A stretch of DNA of 64,000 nt from Branchiostoma floridae (taxonomy: Eukaryota > Chordata > Leptocardii > Amphioxiformes > Branchiostomatidae), in the NCBI RefSeq assembly GCF_000003815.2, contig NC_049983.1, forward strand, positions 14,986,769-15,050,768, written 5' to 3'. Made by a program: the position numbers and the translations under genes. This document shows positions 20,517 through 61,855 of the stretch, piece by piece. Under the pieces are notes generated by a model. It worked only from the letters and a program-made list of their open reading frames with translations, ran no database searches and was not told the DNA's origin. How positions within the stretch are numbered: position 1 is the stretch's first letter; every line of letters starts with the position of its first letter.

Positions 20517-23500
20517 TCATTTCTTCTTGCCACCTTTGGTGACGTTCCTCTCGGCCTTGCCCAGCGACACCTGTCTGGCGCTGGAGCCAAAGGTGAGGGT
20601 ACTGATGGACTCCGACACATTTTTCTCATCTGGGCTCACCATCACAAACAGACAGGCCTGAAAAACACAAACCAAACGTCATTGAAGAGGTTCATCAGTC
20701 ACGTATGAATAGATTTTGAATTACTACAATATTCTTCCGACAGTGACAGTTTTTTAAAGGCATTATGTTATATATACGATGGCTATCAATCCAGAGGTGG
20801 GTGAGCGGCAGAAGATCCACGCAAGTCTTGACCTAGACTCGCACTCTCACGAGACTAGGTCACTATGTGAACAAGATGGACTGATAGCCATCGAAAATTT
20901 GGAGGTATGTATGGAAGAATATTGTCATGAAGTTAACCTTTTTCTAGCTGTAGTTTTCGGTATCAAACCTGTAATGGTTAGAAGATAACACACCAGTGGA
21001 ACAGTCATATTTTTGCGATTTTGACACTGACTATTTACATGTATATAGCTAACTTACAGATTGACAAAAAGATTTTAAAAATGTGGAGGTTCTGCTGCAG
21101 TACCAAGGTCACATACCAGGGGGACCAAAGTTGACCTTGACAATGATGTTCCCAACACCTACCAACATTCTTTTGCTGATCACAAATGTCCAGAAACACA
21201 GATAGACAGATACACCAAAACTATACCTCCATTTTTCATGGAGGTAAAGATTGAGATACTGTAAAAATTGAGATAAGTAAAGCAATAATAGCAAAACCTG
21301 TACAGATAACACTGCACATGTAAGTGCGCAAAGGATGGACAGATACATTTTATAGTCTAGTGAGTGGAAATGCGAAATCAACCTTAGAGACTGTTCAACA
21401 TGTAAACTGTGCATGTCTGCATTCTTAAGTTCAACCTTAAACTGATTAGGTGCACTTCTGAACAAATCCAAAGACTTTGTCTATTTTAATCTTGATAAAT
21501 TTCTCTCACTTGGCTGGTACCTCGAGGGATATACTGACACTCCACTGCTCTTATGGGATGAGAGCAACATGCCTTCACTAATCTTATTTCTCCACTTAAG
21601 TGGAAGGATGTAAAACAGTGTGATTAACAGGAGAACCTTATAAGGTCCCATGGAGGGCAATGAATATTAATGAGCAACACTGCACCTCAGGAATCCTACT
21701 ATATATAATTGTGAATACATACAAGGTCTCCTAGCTGCAAAACTGTTTTCACTTATAGCTAGCTTCCTTTTCCTATTAGAAAGTACTGTCTAACTGCTCA
21801 CTCCCAATTAGATATTACAAGTCACAGTCTTATAACGGTCCCATTTTAGCTAATACAAGAAGGTTGAGGGACATTAAAGTGCACCCTAGTCCTTAAAGAA
21901 TATCTGAAAAGGCGGACAACTACATGTAAGTGGTATTGATTTCAATTACGTCAAGAAGAAAAATTGTTCCACTGTGTATAGTGTGATTGAATATTGAATG
22001 TTTTGCATTTTGAAGATTGAAAAATACTAACATAACATGACAACTGACACCATATCTGTTAATCATGGAAAGAAATGTTACATTTAATACATCAATTCAA
22101 ATCAAAGTTGCCCCAAACTGTGGATACACCGGTTAGACTACTTTTCTCTTATGACTTAGAGGTGTCAATATCAAACATTTCTATGAAATGAGCAGCTACA
22201 GATTTAACTTAGTCTACAAGTCAAACTTGTTTCGTAGACTTTGAAACATCAATTATAATAGTTCCACCTATTCCATCTATTGAGATTTATATACTGAGAG
22301 ACCAGTAAAACAGTCCTAGTTTGAGCTTAACAGGATAAAAATGACATCAACAGTACAGTTTCAACTACTGTTAAGACAACCTAATAGGGTTAGATTTGGA
22401 TTTGTTTGGTGTAACAACTCTTACTCATTAAACTTCCTCACATATGCATGCAACAGAGCACCATGCTTTTTAAATGCACAACACGTTACCTTAACTTAAG
22501 GCACCAAATACCAGCCGCTTCATAAAGATTACTTATATTGCACAGCAAATCCGTCTCTATGGATCTATCTCATTGTAAACCCTGCCAGAACTGCCACAAC
22601 TTTTCCATGTAATCCCTATTAACTGCTACCACCTGAGACATCAGCGAGACCACGGCTCACACAAAGGATCCAGTACCCCCTGACAGATTGATTGCCCTAG
22701 TTATTTTCTTCCTCTGACACTGCCTTATAGAAAGTATGCAGAAAACACCCGAGAGAACGTAAAGGTGTCAAGTTTAAGGTCTTTTATGCCTGGATACTTT
22801 GACAAAGAGCATGAAGTGCAATCCGTGGGTGGTAAACCTGTAACAGATCACTATCAGTTTAAAGGTGAGGTACATGTACTTACTAATGCAGGGTTACACA
22901 AGTCCACTATCCTGATTGTCCCAGGCAAGTGAAACTGATGATTGGGCAAGTGAAACTGACGATTGGCTACCCCACTTAGTACGATTTTTCAACAAGTGAG
23001 ATTGCCATAAACTTGTTACTTTTCATAGCCATAGTATCAAGCATTGGTTAACATAGAAAAGTAGAGCCAATGATAAAAGAATGCCATTGCTGGAAGTAAA
23101 AATGCATTTTAGAAAATGTCTTAAATTTTGGTTAAAATTTGGTTTGGGTATCAAAGTAGATTTTTTATGTACATGTGAATTTTAGAAAAACCTGACAGGT
23201 CCAGACCTGTAATGTGTTGCTTGCTGACATTCTGGATTTCTCTACCTTGTCAATGTTTCAATAGTTAAGGTTTATTGACACTTTACATACATCGGTTTGA
23301 TAGACACTAATTAAGATGGTTAATATGCAAGGGGCAGAGCAAGCAATATTGCACACTGACGCTAGAACTATATTTGTTGACATTAAAACAGAGTGATTGA
23401 ATATTAAAAATAACCATAAGTACAGGAGACAGCAAGTGAATTCCTATAAACGTCAATGTCATAATCATGATTGTTCTGAAGTAGTCATACATGTATGCAT

Positions 23501-26500
23501 GGTGGATTCATGCATTTCTAAATGTTCCTCATGAGATTGTCATCAAATAGGCAAGAAAATATAGAGTGCTTAATATCAAATAAGTATCAATGATACTAAA
23601 AATAAATCACCACTGGTAGGAAGTAATGAAAATGAGTGCATACTGGTACATGAGTAAATTATGTTGTTTTTGATTTCTATCATGATTATTAAAATTGCTA
23701 GAGATGAAAAATAATATTGTGGTAATTACATTACAACTCAAATAAAGGTGGTTGTAAACAATAAAAGCACTACTCCATCAGCATCCCAAACTGTGAATTA
23801 AGTAGAAACTGTGCCAAGCTTTTTATGAAGGAGATGGATGAGAGAAAAGGTCTATCACTCTACAATCACTGTAAGTCTGGAAACTTCTGCGGTGGTTTTG
23901 TGTTTTTGCAGTGACCTCACCATGCATATATGACACCAAGACTATGTCTCTCTTTTATGATTGTACCACAAAATTGTTTTAATAATGGGTTAAAAAACAG
24001 TTAGGGCAGAAATTCCCCTTTCCCCTCCTACAGCAAAATAAAACCACTACAAAAGTAAAAGTATATACAGCAACTTTGTGAGGAACAAAACTACCACTAG
24101 AATTTATTACGCTACACAGGTACAGCAACTGTTATATACATAAATGTATACAAAGTGTATAGAAGTAGTGACCCAGGGACAGCACTTTTTGAAAAGATGA
24201 GGAAAATATTAGATGAGTGTAACCTATAGAGCTTTGTAACTAAAATAAGTCTAACACTGTGCCACAACAATGAACAACATCGAGACAAACCTTGGCATCC
24301 CCACCCAGTGCAGGTTGGAGCAGGTGAGTGAGTTTGGAGTTCCTGTAAGGCACATGTAGGGCGTTGGTTCTCAAGGACTGGAACACCTGTGGTGGGACAA
24401 CAGAAAAGTAGAGTTTTAATTACAGTATGTTCTATATACATGTGTACAGCGCCTTTATCTGTGGGGTAACCTATATCCATTGTTTTTAAAAACAGGACAT
24501 TACATTTGATATCAAGTCAACGGACGGTGGTTTCACACTGTAAAATTTCAAAATATTGCTGTTATTTTCATGTACCGTCCGTCGACTTCATATCCCTAAA
24601 TACCGTTTTCAAAAACAATAGATATAGGCTAGCCTGTGGATAAAGGTGAACTAGCATTACACTAAAAGACATTATGCAGAAAATTCAATATGCGTCTAAA
24701 ATGTATCAATATTGTAAAACCGAATTGGAGTTATAACACTAAACTGCGAAATGGAGTAAACATTTTCAGCACTCAGTTTGTCTGTCCTTCTCCAGGTCTA
24801 GAACTTGATAGAGTTTAAACATTGGAGCACAATCCCTAAGGACCATTTTGACAGCCAGAACATTCTTCAGCTCTGACAACTCGTTCTTTTTTCCTTTCAT
24901 CTAAGGCGGGGGGAATCTTCATTAGCCCAGTTCTTGTAGCAGAATTGACAAATGGTTATAGCAGCATGGAAGGGATTACACATTGCATACATGTATGGTA
25001 ATCTATGGATGGTTTCTGGTTGATATTGATGCCTGGAGAAGGGCATGAATTCAGATCGCTGAGCAACTGTGCATTACAACTGGGCATAAAATTGTGTTCA
25101 GAGGATGTAGTTAACTAAGCCACACATCTTTTTAATCATTTTCTTTGCAAAACCCCAATCCCCAAAATACACTGTTCAAGTACATGTATCACTGGGGGCT
25201 GCAAGTACCTTGAAGGATACAAAATCAATTGGACTCTCTAATACTAGGTCAGGGAACGCATCCTTTTGCAACAAAATCGTTATTCTCGCTGCCATCCTCT
25301 AAATGTACAATCACTTCTGGGATTTCAAAAAGATTTCAATGTAGATTTACCATGGAAATTTGGATGCTGCACCCAATTGGTGTCTCATCCCACCTTTGAA
25401 ATGGCCCATGGTTTGTATCTGGACTACCATTTCATGTACTGTTAAAGCAGAGAATAAAGTGTATTCTGTGTGTAGAACAAATTAAAGCAGTTACATGTGT
25501 ACAATATTATGTATATTGCATCATAACAGTTTTCATCATTTTGCATTTTTCTCATGTCGTGTTCAACAGAAATGTTGCAGGTGTGTTCTATCCTATGTTA
25601 ATTGAGCACAACATTCAGCATTGGTTGTTTAGAGAGATGAAACAGCTTAGAAAAGAACCTGAAAATAACTTGAATCAGCCCTGTATGTCGAGGGTGCAAT
25701 TTTGCTTCATTACCAACATGATGGTGTTCTTTACTTCCATGAATAGGAAAAACTTTTCCTATTACAACATCAAAATTAAGGCCGCACAGCTCATAATTGC
25801 ATCCATTACACCAAGGAATACAAGGCAGTAGTTTGCAGGTGATTATATTCCCTGGAACATATTGCAGGAGGTGGTTTCCATAAAAAAGATATTGCAGAAC
25901 AGTCCGACTTCATCTATGAAGGATTATGTTGATTACCTCAAAATGAAACTGGTACCTTGGAAGGTTTATTAGTCTGTTCTGGTCCTTTGGGCACTTGTAT
26001 AGAGTGCGGATAAGGATTACATAGCTGCAAGCAATTTCTTACAAAAATTGTTTTTTCAAGCTGTTTATCTGAGTGGCCTACCCTGAGGAACAGCTATGGG
26101 GGACTTTTAAAAAGTACTATAAAAAACTGTGATTTGGAAAATGTGGTGGCTGACCTTGGAAAGACATTGAAAGTCGATTCTAAAATATAGATTCTGAAGC
26201 AAGCATCATTTGTCATTTAGTTTCTAGGAATATTTTGTAGCTGGTGAGAAGTGATTTTTCAACTGTAGTGAGTTATGAGATTTCTTAAGAAATACAAGAA
26301 ACCACCAGTTCTGAAGATTGACAGGTGTTTTTCTTGATATTGTATACACTTTTTTGGGTGTCTTGTAAGCATTTGTGTGTCTTCACCATAGAAAGTACCT
26401 CAGACATTTCATTATACTGTGACAAAGTATAGTATGTACATGGAGCGAGAAGGAGATGTCATATAGGCAGTGCAACCAGAAGACGGAAGGACAATAATCG

Positions 26501-29500
26501 CATTGGTTTTGAGTTTGCGGTGAAGCAGTATACACTTATTATCTCTTTAACTTCATTTTAAGAACAGCAATAGGCAACTAATTATCAATGTAGAAAAGAG
26601 AAAGGTAGGAGGAAATGATTGCCGAAGGATAGGTACAAAGAAAGTTCTAGCAAACCCATGGGTTACTAAAAGTCAATGTTTGAATAACCACCTGTCCGAG
26701 TGCTGTGAGTGACTTATTAATGGCTGCAGCCTCCACCAGTCTCTGTCCTGTGGCTTCAGTTTTAGAGATCCTCTCTGACCCAGCCAGGTCCACTAGCATC
26801 AGGGTGCCGAAGGATGTGGTACTGGAGATCTTGTCATGACCCTCCACAGTTAACATCAGCAGCAGGTGGGATCTCGAACTACAAGGGAAAATACAACAGA
26901 AAGATCTTACAAAAGAATGTACATTTGTGTCAATATAAAGATTAATGACAGACGGGGAGATTATATCTTAGCACTCAGCCAACATTGATGCAGACAAATA
27001 TCTCTAGGTTCTGATGCAATTTATTTGATTTTCTGTAATGTTAGCAGTTGGGGGGGGGGGGAGGTAGTAGCTCAGGATTTTAATTTAAGCAGTGAGAACA
27101 TTTTTGCAGCAGGCCTCAGTGTGATAAAAGAATTGGGAGCATAAAATTTTAGTGGTTGAATGATATTAATAACATTACAAGTACTGTTATATAAAATTAA
27201 CAGTATATGGTAAATGATAGAAAAATAGGAACACTATGTGCCTTAAAGGAATTCAAATCTAAGAGTACCATCATCAATCTCCAAATGATGACAACGATAA
27301 GTGATAACATAACTCAAAGGTGAAAAACATCCTTAGGTTTAATACCAAAGTTGTCCCTACAACCCTTCAGCTACTTTCACCACTAATATGAGTACATGTT
27401 TGTCCTGAAGCATACAAGGTTGCACCATCAATCGCAATATTTCTCCGTCTATGAAACTGTCAAAAGTATGCAAATGGACATAAGGTCCGTATGTCTTTCT
27501 CCGATAGGCGATATCCGATAACTGTTTGGGGATAAAGCCTTCAGGCTATGAATCCATGAATCTTGATTGATGTCCCAAGTGACAGTCCACCAGAGGTTTA
27601 TAAATTTGTTGAGAAGATTAATTTTGCAGTTCCACAGTCAATAGGAAAATTTCAATACTGCACAACCCATGCTCGCAGTTGATACCATGAGAATGATTTG
27701 GCACACCATTATTCACGACATAGATTAAGAACTGGATGTAGAAACTTACTACCTATAATCAACTCCAACTAAACACTACCCACAAAACGACTATTCACAA
27801 AAAGCTTTAAAAGTAGAGCTACTGCTGTTACTGTTACTGTTCAGTGCATCACACAGGAAAGAAACCAATTGGCCAATGAGTCTGCAAACTCTAAATGACA
27901 TTTTGGCAGTAATATGCCAGTAATATCATCATTTGGGTGAGCCCTGTTCAATGTGATTGGGTTAAAACTTTGTTTTTACCTAGCTCCAAATCAGACACCA
28001 AGCCCTTACCTTTCAGCATTCATTTTGGTGAAGGCAGTTGTCCTGTTTTTGAAGCCTGTCTCCATGGTATCTGTGATGTCCCTTTCAGTCTTCACCTCTA
28101 TGGCTGTCAGGCCTGTGATCACCTGTTTCTTACCCTGTTGGAGACACAGGCACAGGGACACTTAACATTTAGCACAGATGGTCGGTGACATTTCAACTCA
28201 AGGTAGGAGGCACTTAACTATTGGTATCACGGACAAGAACTCTGCATACCTTTTGACATATTTGGTGCCAAAAAGGGTTCAAACAAAAAGTAACCCGCTT
28301 GCAAGTATCTCTATGTGCCTGTGTAGTATCCTTTGACTGTGTACTAGTGTGCTTTTATGTACTTGAATGTAATACCTTCTGTATACCTACCATGGTTCTG
28401 ATGTCAAGAGTAGCATTGCCTATAGACCCTTCCTTCAGTAGATCTGACAGGGTTTCATTGTACACTTCAACCATGGAAATCTGTTGAAACAAAAAATTGT
28501 CAAACTTTAGGCAATAATTGAATCATTGTAGCATACATGATTGTACTCATGGTAACTTCATGGAGATGTATCATAACCATAACAGAATAAGTAGACAGTT
28601 TGTCTCCTGGCTATTCAGACACTATATTCTTAGGTATCATTCAATTACATTGGGTACAATCAACATGTAAGTAACCTATCAAAAACAAAACACAAAGAGT
28701 TTGGTCTGTGGTCTACAATCAACAGTCCAGGATAACCAGCATTTTGGTGCACATGATATAATTTCAGCAATTCAAATGATGATTCTTTACCTTTAAAGTG
28801 TAGTCAACTGTCTCCTTGTCATTGCATATTCTTAAGAGCTCCTTAATTGTCCTGTTAATGAAGTATAAACAAACAAGTGATTAGTTGAATGATAACATAT
28901 TACTCATTAGGCAATTCTCAAGCAACAGAACAAAAATTGATGCTTCAATCTTTGCCACCTTCACCTTCAAAATGCATCTAATACCTTGGAATAATGTTGG
29001 GTATGACTCAACCGAGAGCATTAGAGGCCAAAATTTGATGCCTTGACAAGATTAATGAATCATTGCCAACTCATGGCCTGATATGGTAATAAGATGTCAG
29101 ATACTCAGTGTGTGCCCCCTTAGGCAATTGAAGATATAAGGCTTTGAATTAATGGTAACTAAGTGCCTTGCCGATGTATCTTCAGTTTTTGAATAATAAC
29201 TGTATTACCGGACAGGATTTTGACATGTACTAATTGCTTGATGTTGTTGTTGTGACAGTATTTTGACATGTACTAATTGCTTGTTGTTGTTGTTGTTTTG
29301 CACAGTACATGTCATAGTCTGTACAGACTGACTGCATATATGGAAAGTATTTTGTATTGTATTGTATCATTTTCCATCCACAGTACATATCATAGTCAGT
29401 ATAGACTGATTGACAGTAGTAGCAGTACTGTTACTGACCTGATGTTCACCCCTGGGTAATCTGGTGGACCCATCATTGTGAAGGTTTTCCCTGAGCCAGT

Positions 29501-32500
29501 TTGTCCATAAGCCAGAATACACACATTGTACCCATCCACACAGGACTGGACGATGGGTAAAGTGTCCTCAAACACCTACAGTGGAGGGAAAATGTCTATC
29601 GGTCAGATAAGGGACTTCTTATTTTGTCAAAACAGCTTAAAGCATCCTGTGTCAAAAAAACGATTGTAATTTATCATGTAAAGGTACTAAGAAAATTTGC
29701 AAATCATCTCTAAGCCTGTAAGTAGTTTCAACATTAATTTCAAGGTAACATCCAAAGACAATTTTGAGTGTCTTCAATTAATCTTGATTGAGAATTAATC
29801 TTGAGATTGTTTCAAACCATCTTGAGATTGTTTCAAATAAGCTTGGGATTTTCAAAAATCTTGAGATTCTTTTGAAAAACCTCTGATTGGTTGATTTTTA
29901 ATGATGTATGAAAACTCTTGTGTGGGATCATTATATATCCCGACAAGGTCATGACATTCACCTGTTCTTGAGTGGAGGCCGGAGAGAAGACTTTGTCAAA
30001 GCTGAAGGTCTTCTTGCTTCCACCCGTCGGAACAACAATGTCCTCGTCATTGGGGAACTGCATGTAACCTCCGACCCTGTCATCTCGCCGACAGCGACAG
30101 AACACACGGATGTTCCCGCGCAGTTCTTGCAGCTATGAATGGCAATGGGAGTTATCAAACGTGGGTATGTAATCTTTTTCAAGATATAACACAACATTAA
30201 GGGGCTTTTTATGGAAACTTAACCTTTATAAGTATAACTTTTTAATCATGAAGCTCTTTATAAAAGTCTTAATTATAACATCCACACTACCACACTGTAT
30301 ATTCACTGCTGATAAAACTGGTTGTTACTAGTATTCTGAGGGGATATGTTGATGAAGGTTAGAAATCCATGTAGGTAAACAATAGCTGGCAATTCAGTCT
30401 CTGTAACTGGCTAAGATGCTCGAGATTAACTCCAGACATCTCAAATCCTCTAAGGGGACATTGCAAGATGTCAATCTCCTATTGAGGAGATGCACAGGTT
30501 GATGAAGAACCTATCACACTTTATCCAAACTAGGACATCAGAAGCCTGTGATGCGTCAGCCTGCTGACATGTTGGCTACACCTGGGTAATTATTTTGTCT
30601 TAAGGTTCCCACAGAGACACTTGCTGTAGCAGACTGATGACCCTTGTGATTCAGCCATCGCTATCACAGGCTCGTCAAGATCACTTAATTGCCCCAGAGT
30701 GATTATTCATCTTCTTTCCCCTTCTTGTTTACGTTTCTATGCTTCAAGACAAGTGAATCTTAATGCTCTTTAAAACACAAGGTTTGTGGTTATACAGAAG
30801 TCTGATGAGCATATTAAGCACGTATTCTTTCCCCTATAAAGTTTTTTTTTTCAATTTGTGCAAGTAGAAAAACTTTATGTCTAAAACATTTCTGAGAATT
30901 AATGTAACAATCTCAGACAGCAATGACAGCAACAGAATGCAGACTGACATTTCTTGACAAAGACTGTCCAAAAAGTTGGATAAAAATTATGTCTCTTGTT
31001 GGATTCTTGTTATAACTCAACTCTTATACTCAGATTGACTATTACTAAATCAGACAAAGTTGCAAGTTGCGAGTCTCAGACAAGAGTTTCCTAACCTGAT
31101 TGTAGAGTAGTTTCCTCTGTAGCGCCTCCTTCCTGTACAGGACCCGCAGTTCCTCCACCTCATTCCCACTGCTGCTGTCCATCTCACTGATCTGTCCCAG
31201 GGCTGAGATGGCCTGGACAACACAGTTGATGATTAGTCTATTTCAGATTCATGAACAGTATTTACAGCCCCACTGGATACCTAAATTGTACTGCACTTAA
31301 CATATAAGGGCATCATTCAAGTACTACAACATTGTTTTAAAACTGGTATTAATAAACTTTAAGGCTTGCTCCTTGTGCATCATCATTAAAAATTCCCACT
31401 GATTATAAGTACTTTGTACCACTTTACATTTACCAATATACATTCTTTGGTTCTAAAACAGTTAGTTACAGTTCATTGCATTGTCTTCAACAGATAACTA
31501 ATGTTATAGTTCATTTAGATATTTTTATGTTTTTTTTAACAAACTTTGAACACAACCATGTCTGTTTAGCTGAACTAACATTTTGGTGACCATCTGTCAT
31601 CTTCTGAGGAATTATAATGACAGTTGAACAAAACACAATGTACATAGAAGTATGTCATTCAAGCACACTTGATCTTTGGAAAGCTGTTGGTTAACACGGT
31701 GCTGTACACTGAATTTGGCATATGATACAGAGGCTCCCCCTACCTTTTTGGTTAAGTCTTGCAGGTCTGAGAAGCCATCTTTGACTATGACTTTCAGACT
31801 GCGGTAAGACTTGTCCAGCTCCAGTGCTGAGTGGTTCAGAGCCTTCAAGGTTTCTTCCTCCACGGTAGGGCCAGCAGGAGGCAGTGGTTCAGGGGTGGGG
31901 GTGCGAGGGGCTTTCACGACAGTCATAGACTCTGCTGAGGACTCTCTCTGGGAGTCAAAACCAGACTCAATTTCACCCTACAAGTATGAAGGTAGAAATT
32001 GTTAGCATTGACTTTACACATGACAAAAATCAAGAGTGCACTAAGATAACAATAATGAAGCTGGCAACTATTATACGAACACTCCATGAATTTGTGATCA
32101 AAATATATGTTGAGATATATGTTGGGTGACAATTTTCTGTACAAATGATAAATCTTTTGCCACCACAAATATTGGAAGGATTAGGCAATGGTGCTTACGT
32201 GACGACGCCTTCCGAACGATGAAGGAGTCATCGTCTTCATCCGCTCCATCTGCATGTGTGATGCTGACAGCTTCACGTGCATGTCGTTATTCTCTACCTC
32301 CAGATCCAGCACCTTCTCATTCAGTTCAGCAACCTGTACACCGTGCAGGTAATGTTAGTACTGAAGGTTTTAAATTTTGTCAAGCAATTTATCACTTCCT
32401 ATCTTAAGGCCACACTAATTTGATGGGTTGGTTCTCTGGATTTAACACAATTTGTCTACAGGTAACTGGAAAAAACATAATGAAAACAAAGCCTGAGAAA

Positions 32501-35500
32501 CAGGTGCAAATTCATGCTTCAGTACACTGGGTCTTATGGAGTGAATAGAGTGACTGTGAGTGACATAGTCACGTTTTCTTCCCTGCCCTCTGCGAGTAAT
32601 AATAGTGATCAGATGAGTGAAACTTCACAATTAGAGGATATACAATGTATTGTGCCATCTGATCGAAAAACTAAAAGTGCAAAGATATAACCTGAATCTC
32701 AGCTAATTTTCATATTTTAACTATTATCTACAAGTGCTTGATGGGATAGAAGAACTACATGTACATGTATATAAAAGTATGAAAACCTACCTTTTCAAGT
32801 TTTTCAACAACTTCAGTTTTCAGTGCTAATCTTTCCTGAAGAAGAGACTGCTTTTCCCGCTCCTAGAGACACATGAAGATATCTCTATGTTACCATTTAA
32901 CAAGTTTGTTGGAACTGCAAACTATAAAATCTACTGTGCAGTAAAACATTCTTCTCATGTATCACCTTAAATGGTAGTAGGCTTTAATGTTTGAAACACA
33001 ACATTAAAACAACTTGGTACATGTGAAGGTGTGTCTTGTTTTTATTTGTAACATACTACTTACGTACAGCCCAAGAAGAGATCATGATCAGACTACACTA
33101 TGCTGTCTGCAGGCTATAAACCCTTACCTTCTGCTTGAGCTGTTCCTGTAGAGCATGGATCTGTCTGTCCTTCTCCTGTAGCTGCTGCTGGCCTTCTCTG
33201 CCTCCTCCCCAGCGTTTGGCACCTGCACACATGAATTACAGTAGGTTTTGTAAGGAACTGGTAGGTAAAGGTAAAGCAGATGACCTCCGGCTTAGGAGGA
33301 AGCATGGCACTTATTCGTTACAATGTAGTGCAATGCGCTTTGCTATGGATTGCATGTATTCAGCCAAGCATACATGTATTAGGTAACAACTACTATTCTC
33401 CAAAAAACAAGTGTGTTCAACTACTAGTAGGGTCCTCATAGAAGTTTTATGCTAAAAGCTGCCTTTATAAACAGGACTCCCGGCTTCAAGCTCACATTTA
33501 AAGGACAATGCGACTCGTCTCCCGTCATGCCCATACCGAGACGAGAACCCCGGCTCCATAGAATTTGAACCAGATATGGGGGGAAAAGTACACTAGGCGG
33601 ACAGTGCCTTTAAAGTACAATAAGATGACACCTGACTACTGACGTATATCAAGGAGAATTCTATCCCAACTCCTGCAAGCAATCCTTACCTAAATTGGGA
33701 TCTCCAAGACAAAGATAGTTGGCCACTGTCTGCTCAGTATTGTAGTTACACTGTCTCAAACTGGCCAGGATGTCAATTTCATCTGTCCAAGTAGGGATAG
33801 ACTCCTAGAAGAAGAAAAAACAACAACATTTTTTGCATTAAGATTATGACAGAGTATAATTTACACTCTAAAGAGTGCAAAGAACAGCAAAGGATTGGCA
33901 TCGTAAAATTTTTAAGCTGAAGGTTTGCAAAGTCCCAATTAAAAACAGAGACAGGCAAACTTGGTGAGAGAAGACTTACCTGTATTTCATGCACCTGTCT
34001 CCTGATGTAATCATTATGTAATTCCCACATCAGGGGCATGTTGATCCAGTAGCCTGTCTCATCATCCATGTAGCAGTACACATTTCTCTTTTCCTAATGT
34101 ACACAATGGAAAAAAACAATTATAGCACTGCAATACACTTGTTGTGGAAAAACACATGGCACTTTGCATGCAGTGAAGCAGTTGCACATCATGCAAAATA
34201 TGTTTCAGAAAATCTGTAATAAATTTGAAAAAAAATTGTAAGAACACAGCCAATGTACGAAAAGTTAACTTTAATTTTTTTAAGCAGGAGCCGTACCGAG
34301 TACTAGCCTTGCTAGAGAGGAAGTAAAACAGAGCCAGAATAGCATTCATGGCTGTACTCCAGTCTACCATTGAAAGCAGCAATATTTTTGGCAATTACGG
34401 TCAGTTCCTATCAGTGAATGCACTAGAAAAACAACACAAACTTATCCCGTACCTCAAACATGTAGGTGATGACAGTTCTCCCTTTGAGCGGGTGGTCGAA
34501 GTACCCGTCCCTGTCATCATCAGGAGTGGAGGAGGCAGTCTCCTCAGTGACGTAACCACTGGTCGTACCAGATGTACTGGGGCCATTGGTATCACTGGTG
34601 GTCTGGAGCTGCACCTGTGGGGACAAAATTATATAAGTCTTCACTTGTACATGTAAAATGTGAAACCATGTAAACCAAGGTACAGGTTTTCCCCATTGGA
34701 TTTTCTTTTCATGTTAACTTTGCGGTATAGCTTCATATTCTTAAAGGCAAGAGGGCAAAAACAAACTGTTCTGGCCTTATTACAGTAACAATACATGTAG
34801 TTTCTATACAGTCTCTTCCATATTCCGCATATATCATTGGAAAGTTTTGCACATCAATTTCTTCACCTGCACATAATTTCCTCTCATTTGACTCGAATTC
34901 TGTCATTGCATTTGTCAAATTTTGTGCAAAGTACATCTTTACCAAAGATGACATCTGTAAGCAGGGGAGAGGAGATCATGTAATCAAGCAAGCATGACAA
35001 AAGTAAACACTTCCACTGATCCATGCATTGACTTTTAGCAAGCATGACTAATCAATGTGGACTGACAAGGGTTGCATTCTGCATACTCTTTACTGTCACT
35101 GTCAGAAGAGAGCGAAATTTTCCCTCAGTTGCACACATGATTTATACTCACACTCACAGGCAATCGAGTGGGTTTGTTTGGTAGTTTCTTGGAAAAACAA
35201 AGCAACAAATGTAAGTAAGTGCTCACATGTATAGGTAAGATGTATAACATTGAAATTGCAGGCATCATTCTTTTATGCTGTATTAGGTGCTTTTTTTCTG
35301 TGTTTCTGGAAGATCGCTGACAAATGCACATAGTGCCTTCTTGATGTGCGAGTAGACCTGTGCAATTACCAAGTACTGTACTAATATGTATGCCCACTTG
35401 TCTTGAGTGACGTGGTCAAGAAATAAGATAAGTTACTTATAAGGCAAAGCATGCAAATTCTTGGTGCTGATATTTGGCCATCAAAATTAACAAGCTGGAC

Positions 35501-37948
35501 TTTCAATCCAGTGATGTTGCCTTGGAAGAAAAAAGTGCAGTTTGGAAATAGTTTTCAATGCACATNNNNNNNNNNNNNNNNNNNNNNNNNNNNNNNNNNN
35601 NNNNNNNNNNNNNNNNNNNNNNNNNNNNNNNNNNNNNNNNNNNNNNNNNNNNNNNNNNNNNNNNNAGTTAAGAAGTGATGATGTGATATTGTTTATTCTG
35701 TTACCAAAGGTGTCAGTCATATCATCCACTTTACTTTAGCAAAAGGATTTTCAATACCACTTCTTCTTAATTGACACCAAACCTATGTGGAAGTTACAGA
35801 AGTGATGATGTGACATATTGTTTATTCTGTTACCAAAGGTTTCAGTCATGTTGTCTACTTTAGGATAAAGGACTTCAATACCACTTCTTCTTTATTGACA
35901 CCAAATCTACGTGGCACGACTGCTTTTGAAACAAAACAATAGGGATGTCCACTGTTATGGTGGGCGTCACAGTAACTGATACAAACAGGACTCATATTTG
36001 CACACCTTCTTTGTACCCTCTCAAAATGAAATTCCATTGCATTATATATATCATAGATAATCATTAAGGAAACTTTAAGAATTCAAACACTGCAAATATC
36101 ATAATTTTAGATCTTTACACCAAAATCAACAGCTGACTTTCCGTATTTGATCATGTACAGGAATTTGAACAAGCTACAAATGCCTTCGTGTCTGCAAAGA
36201 TGTAATTAATTCATTAGATGTTCAGTAAATACGCTGAGGTGAAAGTCAGGCATACAGTACTGGTTAATCATTAATGACTTTTCTTAACACCGATAATCAC
36301 TAGTATTTGGGCATATTATGTGTCTTTTTGCCAAGTACTTCTATGGAGAAGTGATCACAGTTTTAACAAAGCAAACCAGCGCCCCTGCTTACACATGGTA
36401 CCATGGGTACGGGAACACCCTTCGGTGTAAGGTTACACCGCAAACAAAGGGCCGCAAGGGTAACAAAATGCAACATAACGCATGATGTACTTTGGGAGAG
36501 GTCATCTCATGTTTCCTACGTGAATCTTACAGAAGGACAGCATAACATAGACTTCTTAAAAGACTGCTGGGATTATGTACAGTCACGTACAGTATAAATA
36601 GGTTTCCAGAAGAGCAATTTCTTTTGTAACTACTTGTAGTACTCAGGTATGTTTTACAGCAAAGTTATAGTCATGAAAGAAACCAGAGAAGTGGTGATAG
36701 AAATAAAGACGGTAAGAGAAATCTTTGGGCTCACCTGTTCTGTGAAAAGAGTATCCTGTTCTCCAAAATGTCCCTGTCCCAACCACTCATTAGGGAACTG
36801 CACCCATTCCTTCATAAACACATATCATATTGATTACAAACAGAATGAGAACTAGACAATGTATCACATAACATTCAATAATATTTACTCAATCTGCTGT
36901 TTGTTTTTATTTTTCTTAAGTGAAGAAAAATTCAGGATGGTACTAGTACTAGTACTAGTACTAGTACTCTGTAGTGGCCAGGTGGCCTCTTATCATCCTT
37001 CTTAAATTCAACTCTAAAGAAACTTAAAAGCACTCCGCCAACTCGAGGCATCTTCTAGAATATACTAGTAGCTGATCCACAGTCCTTACTTGTGTTTGCC
37101 AGTCCAGATATGCTCTGTGGCCACTCTGGCGTAAGACTGTGTACTCTGTCCCATCGTTGTGGTGGAAGGTTTCTAGGATCATGTCCTCCTCAGATGCCGC
37201 AGAAGACTGCTGGGTAGCTGCCTGGTGTGATGGTGTCTGGTTGATAAAGCACATTTTATAGTGGTCACTTAAACAACCTCTTAAGATGTTACATCTACAA
37301 AGTTTATCACAGATAAGTAGTAGTCTCAGAAGTGTACAACAGTAGCCAAATTTGTATTCCACATAAATGCAATCTACTAGTGTTCACATTTGATAAAAGG
37401 TGAAACAAGTTATCACAAGATTGCGCAGTAACTTACAACAGAACTCTTCCTTATTTCATAATACAGTCTCTTTACTACTGCATGAACAATAAAGCAGCTA
37501 CAGCAATACAGTTATTATTTATCATCCAAAATACCTGGTTATTTTTCTGTTCAATCCAGTCATCCAGGTCATCATCAAAGTCATCCCTGTGTTTCTGTTG
37601 GTGTGCTGCATGTCCACCGTACCCTGATGATGTGCTCGCTCCATACTCAGGGTGTACATATCCATTGCTTTTCCCATATTGCTGTGCCTGATTCCCATAG
37701 CCCTGAATGTGATTCGGATGTCCGTAAGCACCTTGTGCTTGTGGTCTAGGCTGACCATGGCCCTGGTGTCCATGTGTTGGACCATAACCCTGGTGTCCAT
37801 GTGTGGGAGTAGCCTGAGACTGACCATACTGTAGCTGCACCTCCTCAAAGTTTCCCCGTCTCTGTTGTCCAGGCTGACCCTGGGGGGAGGGGAGGACCTG
37901 TGCCTGGGGTCTGGCCACAGGTTGGGGTGAACTTGACCCTGATCCCAT
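20517..37948 (-). CDS. Kinesin-14 family protein, C-terminal motor (complete, 19 exons)
   Basis: A minus-end-type microtubule motor of 891 aa. Exons, 5' to 3' on the minus strand: 37535-37948, 37090-37236, 36735-36809, 34453-34614, 33980-34093, 33690-33804, 33128-33222, 32791-32862, 32199-32333, 31744-31977, 31096-31212, 29962-30132, 29439-29575, 28791-28851, 28391-28480, 28010-28122, 26692-26878, 24291-24386, 20517-20657. All introns are GT-AG and all phases close. Residues ~1-138 are a Q/G/H-rich tract beginning MGSGSS. Residues 169-196 and 258-289 hold a duplicated aromatic module, ~310-337 look UBA-like, and ~345-560 are mostly coiled coil. The motor covers ~563-891: neck [11 protein letters not shown]-loop GQTGSGKT (641-648), switch I NAESSRSH (748-755), switch II DLAGSE (781-786), NKSLTALG (805-812). 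The motor preceded by a GN-containing neck at the C-terminus defines kinesin-14 and resembles KIFC3. The N-terminus matches none of KIFC1-3 that I know, so no symbol is given. A non-coding 5' exon may lie upstream. Confidence 0.93.
20777..20893. mobile_element. 117-bp MITE in kinesin last intron
   Basis: The ends CGATGGCTATCAATCCA and, inverted, TGGACTGATAGCCATCG match at 16 of 17 positions. A second internal inverted pair, GACCTAG/CTAGGTC, makes the whole segment foldable. It sits about 120 bp upstream (minus-strand sense) of the kinesin terminal exon. No clear target duplication was read. Confidence 0.55.
20894..24290. other. Kinesin last intron (3.6 kb)
   Basis: The intron between the exons at 24291-24386 and 20517-20657. 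It contains the MITE at 20777-20893 and a diverged dispersed repeat at about 22889-23213. The rest is AT-rich and shows no exon or open frame I can support. Confidence 0.7.
22889..23213. repeat. Diverged dispersed repeat, copy 1 (hAT-like ends)
   Basis: It begins CAGGGTTACACAAGTCCACT and ends ...TTTTAGAAAAACCTG...CCAGACCTG. The segment aligns colinearly with 47468-47789 in the IFRD gene: shared phrases are ACAAGTCCACTA, GGCAAGTGAAA, CATTGCTGGAAGT and ATTTTAGAAAA. Copy 1 lacks several of the GGGCAAGT repeats of copy 2. The CAGGG/CCCTG ends suggest a hAT-like MITE. The target duplication is not convincing in this copy. Confidence 0.55.
24449..24650. mobile_element. ~200-bp imperfect palindrome next to a kinesin splice acceptor
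   Basis: The left arm (CCTTTATCTGTGGGG..., TATATCCATTGTTTTT...) pairs with the right arm (...AAAAACAATAGATATAGG...GTGGATAAAGG). A further inner pair, ACGGACGGT/ACCGTCCGT, lies towards the centre. The palindrome ends about 60 bp from the acceptor of the exon at 24291-24386. It is probably a MITE inserted in the intron. No target duplication could be fixed. Confidence 0.6.
26692..26878 (-). CDS. Kinesin exon 17: switch II and NKSL helix
   Basis: Codes for residues 751-813 of the kinesin. It carries the end of switch I (SSRSH, completed across the junction with the exon at 28010-28122), the switch II signature [12 protein letters not shown] and the conserved NKSLTALG. The split serine codon (AG|T) joins the two exons exactly, which confirms the hand-built boundary. 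Confidence 0.95.
27049..27062. repeat. Poly-G tract
   Basis: An intronic run of about 12 G followed by GAGG on the plus strand, i.e. C-rich on the transcribed kinesin strand. It is a simple-sequence tract and a possible G-quadruplex former. No known role. Confidence 0.7.
29439..29575 (-). CDS. Kinesin exon 13: P-loop
   Basis: Codes for residues 618-663. It starts [12 protein letters not shown] and includes the Walker A nucleotide-binding loop [13 protein letters not shown], followed by PDYPGVNI. The exon ends with AG of an arginine codon completed by the G of the exon at 28791-28851. Confidence 0.95.
33497..33614. mobile_element. ~118-bp MITE-like palindrome
   Basis: The ends TTTAAAGGACAATG and, inverted, CAGTGCCTTTAAA pair at 11 of 13 positions. 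An inner pair, CTCGTCT/AGACGAG, continues the stem. It lies in the kinesin intron between the exons at 33128-33222 and 33690-33804, about 75 bp from the latter. The target duplication is unclear. Confidence 0.45.
35566..35665. other. Assembly gap (100 N) inside a kinesin intron
   Basis: Exactly 100 N, in the intron between the exons at 36735-36809 and 34453-34614. It directly abuts a tandem duplication (35666-35915), which probably caused the assembly break. Exon phases either side (0/0) close without missing sequence, though an extra in-frame exon hidden in the gap cannot be excluded. Confidence 0.99.
35666..35915. repeat. ~126-bp tandem duplication beside the gap
   Basis: Two head-to-tail copies at about 35666-35791 and 35792-35915 share GAAGTGATGATGTGA, TTTATTCTGTTACCAAAGG, ATACCACTTCTTCTT and ATTGACACCAAA. 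They differ by scattered substitutions and small indels. More units may lie in the gap. Confidence 0.85.
36936..36968. repeat. (TACTAG)n microsatellite
   Basis: About 4.5 tandem copies of the hexamer TACTAG in a kinesin intron, between the exons at 37090-37236 and 36735-36809. Confidence 0.9.
37535..37948 (-). CDS. Kinesin exon 1: low-complexity N-terminus
   Basis: Codes for residues 1-138. The start [10 protein letters not shown] is the first ATG of the open frame. Gly2 followed by Ser at position 6 fits the N-myristoylation consensus. The rest is rich in Q, G, H, P and Y, with short repeats such as THGHQGYG and THGHQGHG. It ends in an acidic stretch, [13 protein letters not shown], with a GT donor at 37534. 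A plausible acceptor lies about 15 bp upstream of the ATG, so the 5' UTR may be spliced. Confidence 0.85.
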
Positions 37949-39849: not shown

Positions 39850-42800
39850 ATGCCGCCGAGAGGTAACAAGAAGAAGAAAGGTAATGTTGCCTTCTTCCAC
39901 TTAGTAACCCCATTGATACATTTTTGGCGCCTAATATTTTGTCGCCTTTGCTCACGAACCTCAAACTGGTTCTTACTAAGCAGTTGCAAATATCAGTATA
40001 TCCTTTGTGATTTGTAACGCAACATTTGATGCAACTTTCCATTTAACCTTGTCCAAAAATCAGTCTGAAAGAAATGATTTTGTTGCTTATGTTTCTAACG
40101 TACATATGGTTGGCAGGGAAAGATTTGGCTCTTTAGTTTACTTAGGACACGTTTGTTTGTTTGTTTGTGATATTACTGTATAAAATATTCACTTTGTGTA
40201 CTGTTCCCTATGTGCTGTGTATATGCAGCGGGATATCCCACAAGATCCCATAAGCTCAGGGTTATCTTGCTGCCAGGTACGTGATAGAGAGAGGGAGGGG
40301 GGCGGTAGTCACTTTCACTAGTTTATGATTTCTCCTCACGCAAGTCAGGTGATCACGAACGTGGGACTTCTCATGAACGTGCCGTCACGTCTGCTGGGTC
40401 ACAATTCTAAGCTGAGAACCACGTGTAGATCGCACCATATGAATTATTTCTGCTGAATGGCAACTTGAAATTATAAATGAAAACAGGCAAACAGGAATGA
40501 GGAAATACATGCAAAACATGTAAACAAATTAAAAAAAAAAAAAAAAAAACAAACTTAGTGGGTAATTCAAGCCATCATAGCCCGACATGTGTAGAGAATA
40601 TTTCTGCATGACTTCTACGAAAACGATTTAAGTGGCTTCTGTATACTATAATGCGTTTCAATTTGAAAGCACATTTTTCTGAGGCAACATCTGCATTCAA
40701 TTGTGACTTATGCCTATATACATTTATATTGCATTTCTTTGTGCTTAAAAGATTTTTGTGTTTTGTCTAGGTGGTCGCAGCAGTGCGGAACAGAGTGACA
40801 CTGACCTGCTAGATGACACGGCCAGTAATGTCAGCAGCAGTAGTGACCTACGCAGCCTGACAGGAGAGGAGGGTATGCTCTTCCTGTCACTCACTAATCA
40901 ACCTTAAGTTTACTCTCACTATGTTAGACCTTTAGTAAGCTAAAGGTGATAGTGTACTTAAGTGGCAGTGGGTTTGTTGTAAATATACATCAACTGACAT
41001 TATTAATGATATCACTTAATATATAATAATAGATAAACAATTAAGAGGACATCGATATGTGCCATATTTAATTGTGCCCTGGTAAAGTCATGTTGATTGC
41101 GCGACTTGTAAGAATGCAAGAATCATTTTAGATTTAATGTAAGGGACACAGAATAGTTGTCTTCCATTGCTTTTTCAAACGTCCACTCTTATTTTCACTG
41201 CACATCTCAAACATAGTGAGTAAATACAAATAACATGTAGTAACATTTTGTGTCACTGTGATTCTATAAATACCCAGAAAAAATGGTTTGAGTTCCACTG
41301 TGAGATAGAAATAGACATGTGCCACACCTCCCTTAAGGGGGCACACACCAGTTTATTTGGGGTTTCAATTGGAGGCGGCATACCCTAAAGTCTAGCGACC
41401 AGCTCTACCAGGGAATTATCCTGAAGCAAAATAACTGTATATCTGGTGAAAGCATATTCCTTTAGCTACAAGACAAACTAAGTTTCGATCCTTCAACTTC
41501 TCTGATTTAAAAAAATTAGAGGGAAAAAACATTATTTTCATGTAAAAAATAATGCAAAAAATCGGGCATTTTGGCATTGAAAGAAAAACATGATGATTTT
41601 TCCGGCAAACACGACTGATACTGTCAGAAAGAGGAAACCCTAACGAGTAATCCAGCTAATTATAAAAAAAATTCTAGTACTACAGTTTTTTTAATCATCC
41701 ACGGCGCGCGGCATTACAACTAGGCTTAACACAGCGCTTCAGAGGTTAATCTAGGTCACGAGCCTAATCACATTCAGGCGTAGGAATATCCCGGAAGTAA
41801 GACGCGGACCAAAACACAATTTGCACCTAAAACACACCATTTCCTACGCTTTTCAGCCATGTAACAGTTTAATGTCATTTCGCAGGAAATAATGAGAAAT
41901 GTCAACTCAAACATGGACCCTCGGAAGCCTTTCGTCCCTTTTTTCTCGCGCACTAGCTCGGACCCCTGTCGCGGAAGAACTGGTGTGTGCACCGTTAATA
42001 TATGCAAATTATGATTATTATTGTCCATAACATTAAAACGTTATACTCTATAGTCATGCCAAGTTTGAGTTGTCTGCGACTTTTCTTTCTCGAGTAACAG
42101 GTGGTTGAAAGTTGCGGTGTCGGAAGGCTGATTTTGCGCCTTCAGGCCAGTATACCATTCAATGCGCATAATAGCAATTACGTCACAATAAGCTTGTCCT
42201 ATGGAAGAGGTTTTAGGCCATTAATACGTGCTAAATGAAGAGGTATGGCCGTGAAAAGGAAAGGCAAGGGGCCGCTCTTGCGATGGAGCACACTTTCCCT
42301 CTATTTCTAACTGGAATGAACAGTAGAAACCACCTAGAACGTAGTTGAGTTCGTGACGTCACAATGCCGGCCACTAGCCTATGTTTGAAAGTAGGAACGC
42401 TGCAGTTTTAAGTTCCGCACTTCAACGAGATGTGCTTGAAATGTTATTTTTTGGTCATATCTGGTAGAGGATAGACCTAGCTTTCCCGTCCAAGCGTTTC
42501 CGTAGGCCGGGCTTCTTTCATTTCGTAGAAAAATGAAGTCATATGTTGTATCTTTGGTTAAGATGGAGGCCTATTCTGCATATCCTGCCGGTATGAACTT
42601 AAAAACGGGCATCTGCTAAGATAAGGCTTTGCAGTTTGGTGTCGGTCTCGGTGTAATAAACAAGCCTTGGGATGTATCTTCGGATTGGTGCAACTTACTT
42701 GTGTTAATGTCGAGAACTAGCGCCACGCCGAACTTAACATTTGATTTGCCAGGAAAGTGCGAAAATGACGTCAGCAGGGGCTTTTTTCATTGAAAAACGC

Positions 42801-45800
42801 TTGCCGCTTGATGTAGAAGCAACTGTGAAACGTGTAAATGCGATTTACAGGTGCCCCAGAGGTTGTGTAGCAGAAATAACAATGTTTCGGTAATTGTTAT
42901 GTAATCTATGCTTAGCACACACACTTCAAAGGCTCTGCGACCGTGTCTGAGGGGGGTGGGGGTGGGGAGGGGGGCAAATCCACCAATTATATGACAGTGT
43001 AGAATCATATCAAAACCTGAGAAATCCGGCTTTTTTTAACTAGAATTTGATCGAGGCTATACACTTTCATGGGAAAAATGCAATTTGTTGGCTATTATCG
43101 CTAATACTTTTTTCAGGATGGGCGCTTTTAAGGGGGCACACACCAGTTTATTTGGGGTTTCAATTGGAGGCGGCATACCCTAAAGTCTAGCGACCAGCTC
43201 TACCAGGGAATTATCCTGAAGCAAAATAACTGTATATCTGGTGAAAGCATATTCCTTTAGCTACAAGACAAACTAAGTTTCGATCCTTCAACTTCTCTGA
43301 TTTAAAAAAATTAGAGGGAAAAAACATTATTTTCATGTAAAAAATAATGCAAAAAATCGGGCATTTTGGCATTGAAAGAAAAACATGAAGATGATTTTTC
43401 CGGCAAACACGACTGATACTGTCAGAAAGAGGAAACCCTAACGAGTAATCCAGCTAATTATAAAAAAAATTCTAGTACTACAGTTTTTTTAATCATCCAC
43501 GGCGCGCGGCATTACAACTAGGCTTAACACAGCGCTTCAGAGGTTAATCTAGGTCACGAGCCTAATCACATTCAGGCGTAGGAATATCCCGGAAGTAAGA
43601 CGCGGACCAAAACACAATTTGCACCTAAAACACACCGTTTCCTACGCTTTTCAGCCATGTAACAGTTTAATGTCATTTCGCAGGAAATAATGAGAAATGT
43701 CAACTCAAACATGGACCCTCGGAAGCCTTTCGTCACTTTTTTCTCGCGCACTAGCTCGGACCCCTGTCGCGGAAGAACTGGTGTGTGCACCGTTAATATA
43801 ATAAGGTTACAGCTACTAGAGGTCAGAGACCCAGAAAGGGGTTACACCTTATAAGTATATGTGTACATTTCAGTGGTCTTAATTGCTCTATCTTTAGGAT
43901 GTGAAGGTCCATTAATTTTTAATTGGTATTAAGAAAAAATTTATTCAAATTCAAGTGACATGAAAACAGAGTAGCATTGTACCTTTCCCCTTAGCGCTAT
44001 AAAACTCATTACTTTATTACTATTTAGCATTAATCTTACAGTGAGTTAATCTTGGGGTACCACATCGAATCAATGAGGTCCTCTTGACGACCACTCTGCT
44101 TCCATTGGCCACTACACTGGCTGGCTGAACATTCTGTCACGTGTAATCAATGTAAGAGTGCATGTCTGTCTGGGAGCCACACACTGTTTAAACACTTGCA
44201 CACTGTTTGCATGTTGTGTGATAAGAAGCAGCCTTTGGACTAAAAAGTAGGTGCAAAGGTCATTTCCTGGCCAATGAGAGACTTTTGTGGCGCTTACGTG
44301 GCTTGTCAGCCGGCCACATTGCCTTCGGTGCAGATTGGTTGATGTAACCTTTTTGGTGCTTGTAATCAAAGGGTTCTTTTGTAGATCTCTATAAAACTAA
44401 AAGGTTCTAGTTTTAGGTAGTTTAAGTTATGGCCAGTGGCTTAAGTCAGGATGACTTGGAACAGGAAGAGACAGAGGATGATGTAGACACAGACTTGGCA
44501 TATGGAACAGAAGGTACTACATGTAGGGTATGACTATGAGGAAAGACTGGTATAAATCATAAAACCAGTAAACTTTTATCAGGGGGAAATTATCACTTAG
44601 TCTAGTTTCAGTGGTGTGGTGTGAGTAAACGTAAGCCCTACACTACAGTGTGACATGCCAAGTTCCACAGAGTAAAGCTTCAGTCCCAGGTAACTTCTGA
44701 CCTTGTTACACTTATAGACCCGCAACTCAGCAAGATTAATTAATTAGTAACTTGTTAATGTGTCTGTCAGTTCTAGTAGGCTCTTACTGTTTACACATTA
44801 TTCATTTATCACCATTTCTTATTGCTATTAACAGTGGTAGCAGTGTTAAGATATCTTCTTTCGTACAGTACGATGAGTAGTCATTTTGCTCCCTCGTGCT
44901 CTAGGATTCCCCCCTCCTGATGCTATAGATGAGACTGAGGCCCAGGAAGATTTTGAGGAGAAGCTGAGAGATCAGATAGATGGAACCACACAGAAGAGGT
45001 AAGAGCTTAACTGATAATCCCAGTGAGGAAATATTTGGGTTCAGTTGTAACCTGTAATGTTTTGAATTGCTAAGTATCTCTTATCAGCCAGGTAGCTTCC
45101 CAACTTTGATACCTTCATTTTGTACGTCATTCCTGCACTTTACACGTGTAGTTTATTGGCAACTTCAAGAGGAAAAGTACATTTGATGAGCAAGGCATAC
45201 AAAAAGGGTTATGTTCCAATCTCATGCAGTAACAATGAAGTGAAAAAACACATGTGTACATTTGTGATTCAAAGTCGTTCGATGCACAGACTTTGAAAAG
45301 TGCTGTCTACAGTCAAACCTGCCCGAGCGACCACCTCTTCTCAGCGACCACCTGGCCATTTCGACCGCTTTTTCTCGGTCCCGATTTTTTTTCCTATTGA
45401 CGTAAGCATTAAGCGACCTTTTCTCAACGACCACCTGGCCAACGCGACGGCGACCGGCCAAAATTGGGCCCCTTAACGACCGCATCATTTTCAAAATCGA
45501 GGTTTTCATCGATTTTTGATGATAACTAGCGCGATTTTGTGCCGAAATCGACCAGTCTGCGTCGGATTTTGACTGCCATACGATGTTATGTTTAGAATAA
45601 AGATTGCGGCGGTCAATGGGTGGGTCAATGGGGCAGTCTACTGTAATATGGGAGGAAATTTCTAAGAAAGATCTGTGTAGCTCATACCTTTTAAAGAAAG
45701 ATCTGTGTGAGTGCTTTTGTCCAACTGTACATTCACCCTTGGCTAAGTACGCTATTTGGACGTACCGGGCATAGAATTCGAAAGGTGCACCGTAGTTATT

Positions 45801-59419: not shown

Positions 59420-61617
59420 AACAAATGGCAGTACACAATGGACTTTCATGATGGAAGGCACAAAGTCCCATTTGTGTTTGGAGATCTGACTCATTGTCTG
59501 GTGAGAATATCTTACCTCAATGTCTGAATGCCATCTTTGGGGAAGGAAGGCACTTTCAGGCCTGTTATGCTAGAGTAAAGAATGGCCTCCTACTCTAACA
59601 GTTTTTCATGTTCTTTCCGCACATTCTTTTGACTAAGTTGAGAGTGGCCCAGTAGCCTGGACAGTCTACACATCCTTCACTTCCACCGAGTCCCATCCCC
59701 ATCACACATTTGTAATTCAGTTGTGCCTATGGATGGTCCAGTGTTTATAACTATTTACGTTATACAATTTACTGTTATTGTAACTATTATACAGGTAACA
59801 GTTACAGTTTTGATTCCAAGCTACAGTAGTATGAAAGGTTTGAAGTAAAAGATCATACCCAGCTCCTAGCTTCCTGTGAATATTGGTATTCCTGAGGCAC
59901 ATGATCATGATGTGGGTCGATGTCCATTATCCAATGACCCCAGATTGCAATTGATTTCCTTATTCAGTTATTGTAGTACTCATGTGCAGGTATGTGGTAT
60001 GTGTATCACGTTGGACGTAACAAATGTACCTTTATCTCAGTTAGAGGCTCCATATTGTCCAATCTGCATGTTGAGGTTGGAATATCTAGATATGACGGTT
60101 TAGGATCATAATGACTCTGAGTGGTAGAAAAATAAAAAAAATGATGGTACCAGGTACATATGGCAGGATGTGTTAGCATGCAGTCAAGGTCCGCACACAT
60201 GCCATGATAGCAGATATGATGCAACATATGTCTTATTTATCTGAAGATTTAGTCTTACTTACAGTTACTATAGTATGAGGTACACAATTTGAGTATCAGG
60301 TACTTAAATTTTGATCTAGGTCTGATATCATTTGTAATTGGTTATCAGTGGCAAATAAAAACAGTGTAAGCAAAAAAGGCATGGAACTGCAAACTACCAG
60401 TGAAAATGTTGGTACAATTTACTACAGTACAAATGGTCTAATGGTGTTGAAAAATCAATGATGATTACCCCAAGTAGGGACTGGTAATTCAATTACTGCA
60501 CCAGTTGATGCCTGCTGGTTCCATGGGTGCTTTCAGGCCACATGAAAAAGTGATTACAAGGCTGGTTTATTACTCCCAGCATTAGATTTCTCTCCTTACC
60601 TTTGACTGCAATTTGGTCTAGGAAAAAACATTGATCAAATTTTCTACTGACAATGTAGAATTATGTGATGACGCAAAACGATACAAATTGAATTCTCTGC
60701 TTGACTGCATTTTTGTCATAACATTACTATTGCCATTGTTCGCTGTAAAGTTTTCATTGAATTGAAGAGCGACGAAAGATTGCACCGCTCATCACTGGAA
60801 CACGTTTTGAATGAAGCGGTCAAGCAAAGAATTACATTTGTATCCTTTTTTAGTGTGGAAACCAGACCTACCTGGGCGAAGAACTCTACTGTATTTGCCA
60901 GGCATGAAAGTTATCATCTGGTGGCCTAAATAGAATTTGACAATTTAGGCCTGAAGATTGACCTCCTTGTCTGCATGTGAATCCGTGCTAATTGGTAGTT
61001 AGCATGTGACATAAAAGTTTAACATAGTGTGTAGTAACAATGAACAGTTTACTGCAAATATTATACTGACATTTTTTCATTTTGTATACTTCTAGATAAT
61101 GTTTTCATACATGGAAATCCTTGTAGGACAACTGCTCCTATATCTACTAACAGACAACTGTTACTAATTATTCTGTTTCTCATCTTGTTATTTTTCTAGC
61201 TGTTCATCCTGCTGAGAAAGGTTGGTAAGGTCATTGACCTTAGCCTTCACATTGTCCCACAGCTCTATTTTGAACTGCTGCCCAACAGCTTTATCACATT
61301 CCAGCTCTGCTAAACAGTTTACACTATGGAGAATTGTCAAGGTGCAAGGTTAAAGCCAATGTCAGAAACTTGTGGTTTGATCTTCATGAAATCTTGCAGA
61401 TTGGCAAGTTGGCAACAGGGGTGACAGATGTTTTAACTGTAATGCTTGAAATTTTTGCAATGTTTTGATGTTTTCGCATTTTTTGCAGTGACAGCTTCAG
61501 GGCGAATTTAAAACCACCAGTACTGTTTCCATTTCTGTACAGTATGTGGCTGTAGGATCAGGAGGATTTCACCCTTTACCAATTTGTCACAGTCAACTCT
61601 CAGCCCAACACCCTGGT
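59420..61617. other. Intronic/non-coding stretch
   Basis: No exon with credible splice sites and protein-like composition was found. The sequence is AT-rich. I noted nothing else. Confidence 0.5.
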
Positions 61618-61855
61618 CATTCTTCACACCATGGTCAACTTGATCCAACACCCTGATCATCTCGGTCAGGGTTGGGGTTAGAGTCAGGGTTGAGCTGAGT
61701 AGGCCTGATATTGTAATAAGTCATGGACAGAGTCATTCTTCACACCATGGTCAACTTGCCCCAACGCAACACCCTGATCATCTCGGTCAGGGTTGGGGTT
61801 AGAGTCAGGGTTGAGCTGAGTAGGCCTGATATTGTAATAAGTCATGGACAGAGTA
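61618..61855. repeat. ~116-bp recent tandem duplication
   Basis: The copies at 61618-61733 and 61734-61855 are nearly identical (both start CATTCTTCACACCATGG and end GTCATGGACAGAGT). The second has a 6-bp insertion (near CCCCAACGCAACACC) and about two substitutions. A GTTGGGGTTAGAGTCAGGGTT run inside each copy is itself slightly repetitive. Confidence 0.9.

Follow-up and report, generated by a model that had tools for sequence, protein, structure and literature searches.

A Branchiostoma floridae kinesin-14 with a probable CUE-type domain and a candidate repeated module ahead of its motor

Sea urchin kinesin-C stands beside KCBP as a kinesin-14 with folded tail domains. KCBP itself is presented in PMC4574192 as a kinesin-14 that acquired new tail functions through added domains, in its case MyTH4-FERM. 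The mammalian kinesin-14 members are three, KIFC1, KIFC2 and KIFC3, and PMC7063570 describes KIFC3 as three N-terminal coiled coils followed by the motor. In a 2010 survey, 1,300 of 1,624 kinesins carried no recognizable domain beyond the motor (PMC2867816), so the coupling of kinesins to cargo is largely unexplained. The gene described here shares with KIFC3 (PDB 5wde) a C-terminal motor and a GNIRV neck, but begins instead with two putative modules and a probable CUE-type domain. The first-pass annotation knew of no KIFC1, KIFC2 or KIFC3 protein with this N-terminal set, which for KIFC3 agrees with the three coiled coils given in PMC7063570. Like KCBP, the gene would join a kinesin-14 motor to folded tail domains, although to different ones.

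The window is a 64,000-nucleotide stretch of B. floridae contig NC_049983.1. Its minus strand, read from 37948 to 20517, holds a 19-exon gene whose exons, when spliced in silico, encode 895 residues with a single stop (Table 1). All 18 introns are GT-AG and the frame is kept throughout, with exon boundaries drawn by hand to satisfy these two features; a consistent chain therefore exists, and transcription is not thereby demonstrated. The exon chain assembled by hand in the first-pass annotation was reproduced, its exons joining in frame at the coordinates it had given, and the interval it had singled out, 33690-37948, corresponds exactly to exons 1-6. The chosen frame has the highest coding score of the three in 18 of the 19 exons, by a small margin in several. 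Exon 1 is the only one whose chosen frame loses, another open frame scoring higher; its 138 residues include 24 Q, 22 G, 12 P and 11 H, and it contains a 27-bp internal repeat. Overall, the locus at 20517-37948 looks like a real gene.

Table 1. Exons of the predicted kinesin-14 gene, in window coordinates
Feature	Position	Strand	Residues	Content and basis
Exon 1	37535..37948	-	1-138	Q/G/P/H/S/Y-rich low-complexity tail, acidic stretch at end
Exon 2	37090..37236	-	139-187	First part of putative module 1; splice and segment comparison
Exon 3	36735..36809	-	188-212	End of putative module 1; splice and segment comparison
Exon 4	34453..34614	-	213-266	S/T/D-rich linker and start of putative module 2; best coding score of three frames
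Exon 5	33980..34093	-	267-304	Core of putative module 2, predicted hairpin, then helix towards the probable CUE-type domain
Exon 6	33690..33804	-	305-342 plus one base	Rest of probable CUE-type domain
Exons 7-11	31096..33222	-	343-560	Coiled-coil-like stretch, P/T/S-rich break, second helical-looking stretch; judged by eye
Exons 12-19	20517..30132	-	561-895	Kinesin-14 neck ELRGNIRVF and motor; stop at 20517-20519

The motor is identified by Pfam Kinesin (333.1 bits, residues 594-880, C-terminal) and Microtub_bd (158.7 bits, residues 547-698), the whole-chain query carrying one extra residue near residue 755. Among the best 60 of 158 matches to solved structures in the PDB, KIFC3 scores highest (268 bits), followed by KCBP (246 and 241), CaKar3 (219), KIFC1 (214) and Ncd (211). 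The neck, at residues 563-571, lies directly before the motor and aligns with the same GN-I-R-V motif in KIFC3 and KIFC1. This neck and the C-terminal position of the motor make the predicted product a kinesin-14, presumably minus-end-directed.

Comparison within the same genome indicates that this kinesin-14 is an additional one. Kinesin matches were found exon by exon in at least 38 places in the 513-Mb assembly (431 contigs); on visual inspection most of these fall in other families, and the resulting number of kinesin-14 genes is a lower bound. Motors of five other kinesin genes were rebuilt approximately from tblastn pieces in 13 stretches of 10 kb. Gene E (locus L034), one of the five, probably lies outside kinesin-14; it was used with L004 as the outgroup. 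An 11-row tree that included these approximate motors contained three pairs: human KIFC3 with a KIFC3-like gene at 91/91, human KIFC1 with a KIFC1-like gene at 82/81, and plant KCBP with a KCBP-like gene, whose fork (100/98) alone was starred. Identities within these pairs are 66.8%, 61.7% and 57.8%, respectively. The presence of separate KIFC1-, KIFC3- and KCBP-like genes is what sets the window gene apart as a further member. It had no supported partner; in the best tree it sat with gene D (50/32), to which it is 44.7% identical, and its identity to human KIFC3 is 47.3% over 315 columns. Clades joining the window gene to human KIFC1 or to plant KCBP, corresponding to KIFC1 or KCBP orthology, were both rejected by the AU test (p 0.008 each). 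Grouping with human KIFC3 gave p 0.188, and grouping with both KIFC3 rows gave p 0.479. When an approximate human KIFC2 motor, not drawn from a database record, was added, the window gene, gene D, KIFC2 and the KIFC3 rows came together weakly (77/92); the group showed no internal order, and the KIFC3 and KIFC1 pairs fell below the drawing threshold. The window gene is thus placed, as judged from its motor, probably among kinesins of the KIFC2/KIFC3 sort. Gene D, at L031-L032 (contig C3, ~29.126-29.136 Mb), is itself a further kinesin-14-like gene that lies outside the KIFC1, KIFC3 and KCBP groups.

The putative N-terminal modules share the pattern Y-[LM]-D-x-[QE]-T-x-x-W-[VI]-x-[FM]-P-x-x-W. 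Residues 169-196 (segment 1) and 262-289 (segment 2) are identical at 7 of 28 positions without a gap, as the first-pass annotation had reported; its second range, 258-289, spans 32 residues and has been corrected here, 262-289 being the ungapped partner of 169-196. When the 53,659 stop-free 16-mers in the six frames of the window are ranked against the segment 1 core, segment 2 comes first (score 41, next 30), and the two segments are the top pair of 76,636 16-mer pairs within residues 139-560 (41, best unrelated pair 31). The reverse 16-mer scan is blind to segment 1, because an intron splits it. Shuffling reached the observed score in 5 of 200,000 trials for 16 columns and 2 of 200,000 for 28 columns, both sets of columns having been selected post hoc; for a local alignment of the module regions made without such selection, 73 of 5,000 shuffles scored at least as high. 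A duplication is therefore well but not overwhelmingly supported, since the columns were chosen after the fact and the unselected test is less extreme. MAFFT alignment of slightly longer pieces gave 8 identical columns of 41, with one two-residue gap. Intron positions differ between the modules, falling after YLDWQTQ in module 1 and before EKRN in module 2; this argues against a recent copy of an exon pair and suggests either convergence or a duplication of long standing.

The modules gave no meaningful match in Pfam, NCBIfam or the sequences of solved structures. Modeling of exon 5 alone with AlphaFold2, run without an alignment, predicted strands at residues 7-9 and 16-18 of the exon product and a helix at 19-37, with a mean pLDDT of 85.2 (71.5-85.2 across five models). 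The 19-residue helix starts at M-P-x-x-W. The module 2 motif is accordingly predicted to form a strand with Y-x-D, a turn, a strand with the W and a helix beginning at P-x-x-W. In this model the helix that ends module 2 extends into the CUE region, which suggests that module 2 and the CUE-type domain may constitute a single folded head. Exon 6 alone was predicted as one long helix rather than the expected two, at low confidence (63.9).

The Pfam CUE profile (PF02845) matches residues 299-337 over profile positions 4-41 of 42, across exons 5 and 6. Its score exceeds the cut-off of 21.1 bits on fragments (26.3 and 27.0 bits) and falls below it in the whole chain (20.0 bits). The related profile GIP1_N ranked second and was sub-threshold (20.9 bits, cut-off 26.4). 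This segment had been annotated as UBA-like, and that description stands in so far as it denotes a domain of the UBA/CUE type; the UBA profile proper reached 12.3 bits, under its cut-off of 22.4, and CUE fits better. We conclude that residues 299-337 form a probable CUE-type domain. CUE domains often bind ubiquitin, through the contact motifs M-F-P and di-leucine. Here the profile is covered almost in full, but the corresponding positions read S-I-P (306-308) and Y-L (334-335), so only the P and one L are retained. Because these contact motifs are degenerate, ubiquitin binding by this domain is doubtful, and to propose it is a guess. A literature search covering mostly open-access papers found no report joining a kinesin-14 and a CUE domain, nor a kinesin with a CUE domain and a C-terminal motor. 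A tblastn search with residues 1-560 against 130 kb surrounding the other five kinesin genes, of which four are kinesin-14-like, gave two unconvincing rows up to E = 10; the N-termini of those genes may lie outside the stretches searched.

Our preferred reading, to which we assign a probability of about 0.5, is that this is a real kinesin-14 gene, additional to the KIFC1-, KIFC3- and KCBP-like genes that B. floridae also has, and that its N-terminal modules and CUE head select cargo for minus-end transport. The sequence itself shows the consistent exon chain, the C-terminal motor with its kinesin-14 neck, the two similar N-terminal segments, the CUE-type profile match and the low-complexity N-terminus; direction, dimerization and cargo are what we infer from the predicted architecture. 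The stretches before the motor would form a dimeric stalk. Each module would be a small hairpin-helix unit with a core built from the Y, W, P and W residues, and the helices of module 2 and of the CUE-type domain would pack into a compact head. That head could recruit a cargo or a regulator, possibly via ubiquitin or a ubiquitin-like surface, and the cargo would be moved towards microtubule minus ends. The low-complexity N-terminal tail may contribute weak self-association. The partner would then be chosen by the N-terminal head, rather than by the coiled coil alone as in KIFC3. A bolder version appears unlikely to us: that the gene represents a kinesin-14 subfamily not described so far, retained by invertebrates but missing in vertebrates, whose new duplicated hairpin-helix module and CUE domain capture ubiquitin-marked cargo for dynein-independent transport to minus ends. 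The loss from vertebrates considered in the first-pass annotation stays a conjecture within this one genome: a separate KIFC3-like gene is present, but kinship of the window gene to KIFC3 is not rejected. A CUE-type domain on a kinesin-14, if confirmed, would connect ubiquitin signals directly with transport towards minus ends in animals, in a way open to testing; the repeated module would be a small domain of a new kind, to be sought in other proteins.

The alternative that survives best, and that we hold to be possible if somewhat improbable, is a fast-evolving KIFC2 or a second KIFC3 with an ordinary, poorly conserved tail, in which the modules resemble each other by chance and the CUE profile has picked up a helical piece of the tail. 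It draws on the rank of KIFC3 as the closest solved motor among the best 60 of 158, on AU tests that do not reject either KIFC3 grouping and on the weak cluster with the approximate KIFC2 motor. The unselected shuffle and the sub-threshold CUE score of the whole chain also lean this way. The chance explanation sits poorly with the rank of segment 2 among all 16-mers of the window and with the CUE scores on fragments, and a second KIFC3 with the separate KIFC3-like gene, 66.8% identical to human KIFC3. Kinship to KIFC2, taken alone, would leave the N-terminal domains in place.

We consider it quite unlikely that a separate gene or a minor isoform accounts for exons 1-6, leaving a main kinesin product devoid of modules and CUE domain. 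Exons 2 to 5 are in phase 0 at both ends and could be skipped without a frame shift, and the chain is known here from genomic sequence alone. The 100-base assembly gap in intron 3 also leaves room for this arrangement. Against it, the junction of exons 6 and 7 splits a codon (phase 1) with the frame kept, and all exons lie in order on the same strand. The gap, a run of N at window positions 35566-35665, could conceal an exon; immediately after it, a 124-bp unit occurs twice in tandem (35666-35914).

The WW fold has three strands and no helix, and its strands 2-3 carry a Y-x-D-x-x-T...W...P order resembling that of the modules. A pair of derived WW domains that bind proline-rich partners, a reading akin to the earlier description of the modules as half of a WW domain, is nonetheless very improbable and that description is not supported, since Pfam gave nothing for either module fragment up to E = 10, their T-x-x-W spacing is one residue shorter, and exon 5 alone is predicted to place a helix after the hairpin.

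Beyond the kinesin-14 gene, the window contains a possible divergent neighbor in a head-to-head arrangement with it, which would start on the plus strand at an ATG at 39850 (frame MPPRGNKKKKG...). Positions 41333-42002 and 43128-43800 form a direct repeat of 99.3% identity over 673 alignment columns, ~1.8 kb apart, and a 121-bp unit occurs twice in tandem at 61616-61854. Elsewhere in the genome, gene E (L034, contig C4) contains the kinesin motor piece HIPYRNSLLTMVLRDSLG four times in identical letters, ending at 4578, 4444, 4310 and 4176 and thus spaced 134 bases apart; either exon repetition or a repeat in the assembly may explain this. Two kinesin motor exons with similar translations, L011 and L012 (contig C2, 18.28 and 18.30 Mb), lie ~19 kb apart and are perhaps a recent tandem gene copy.
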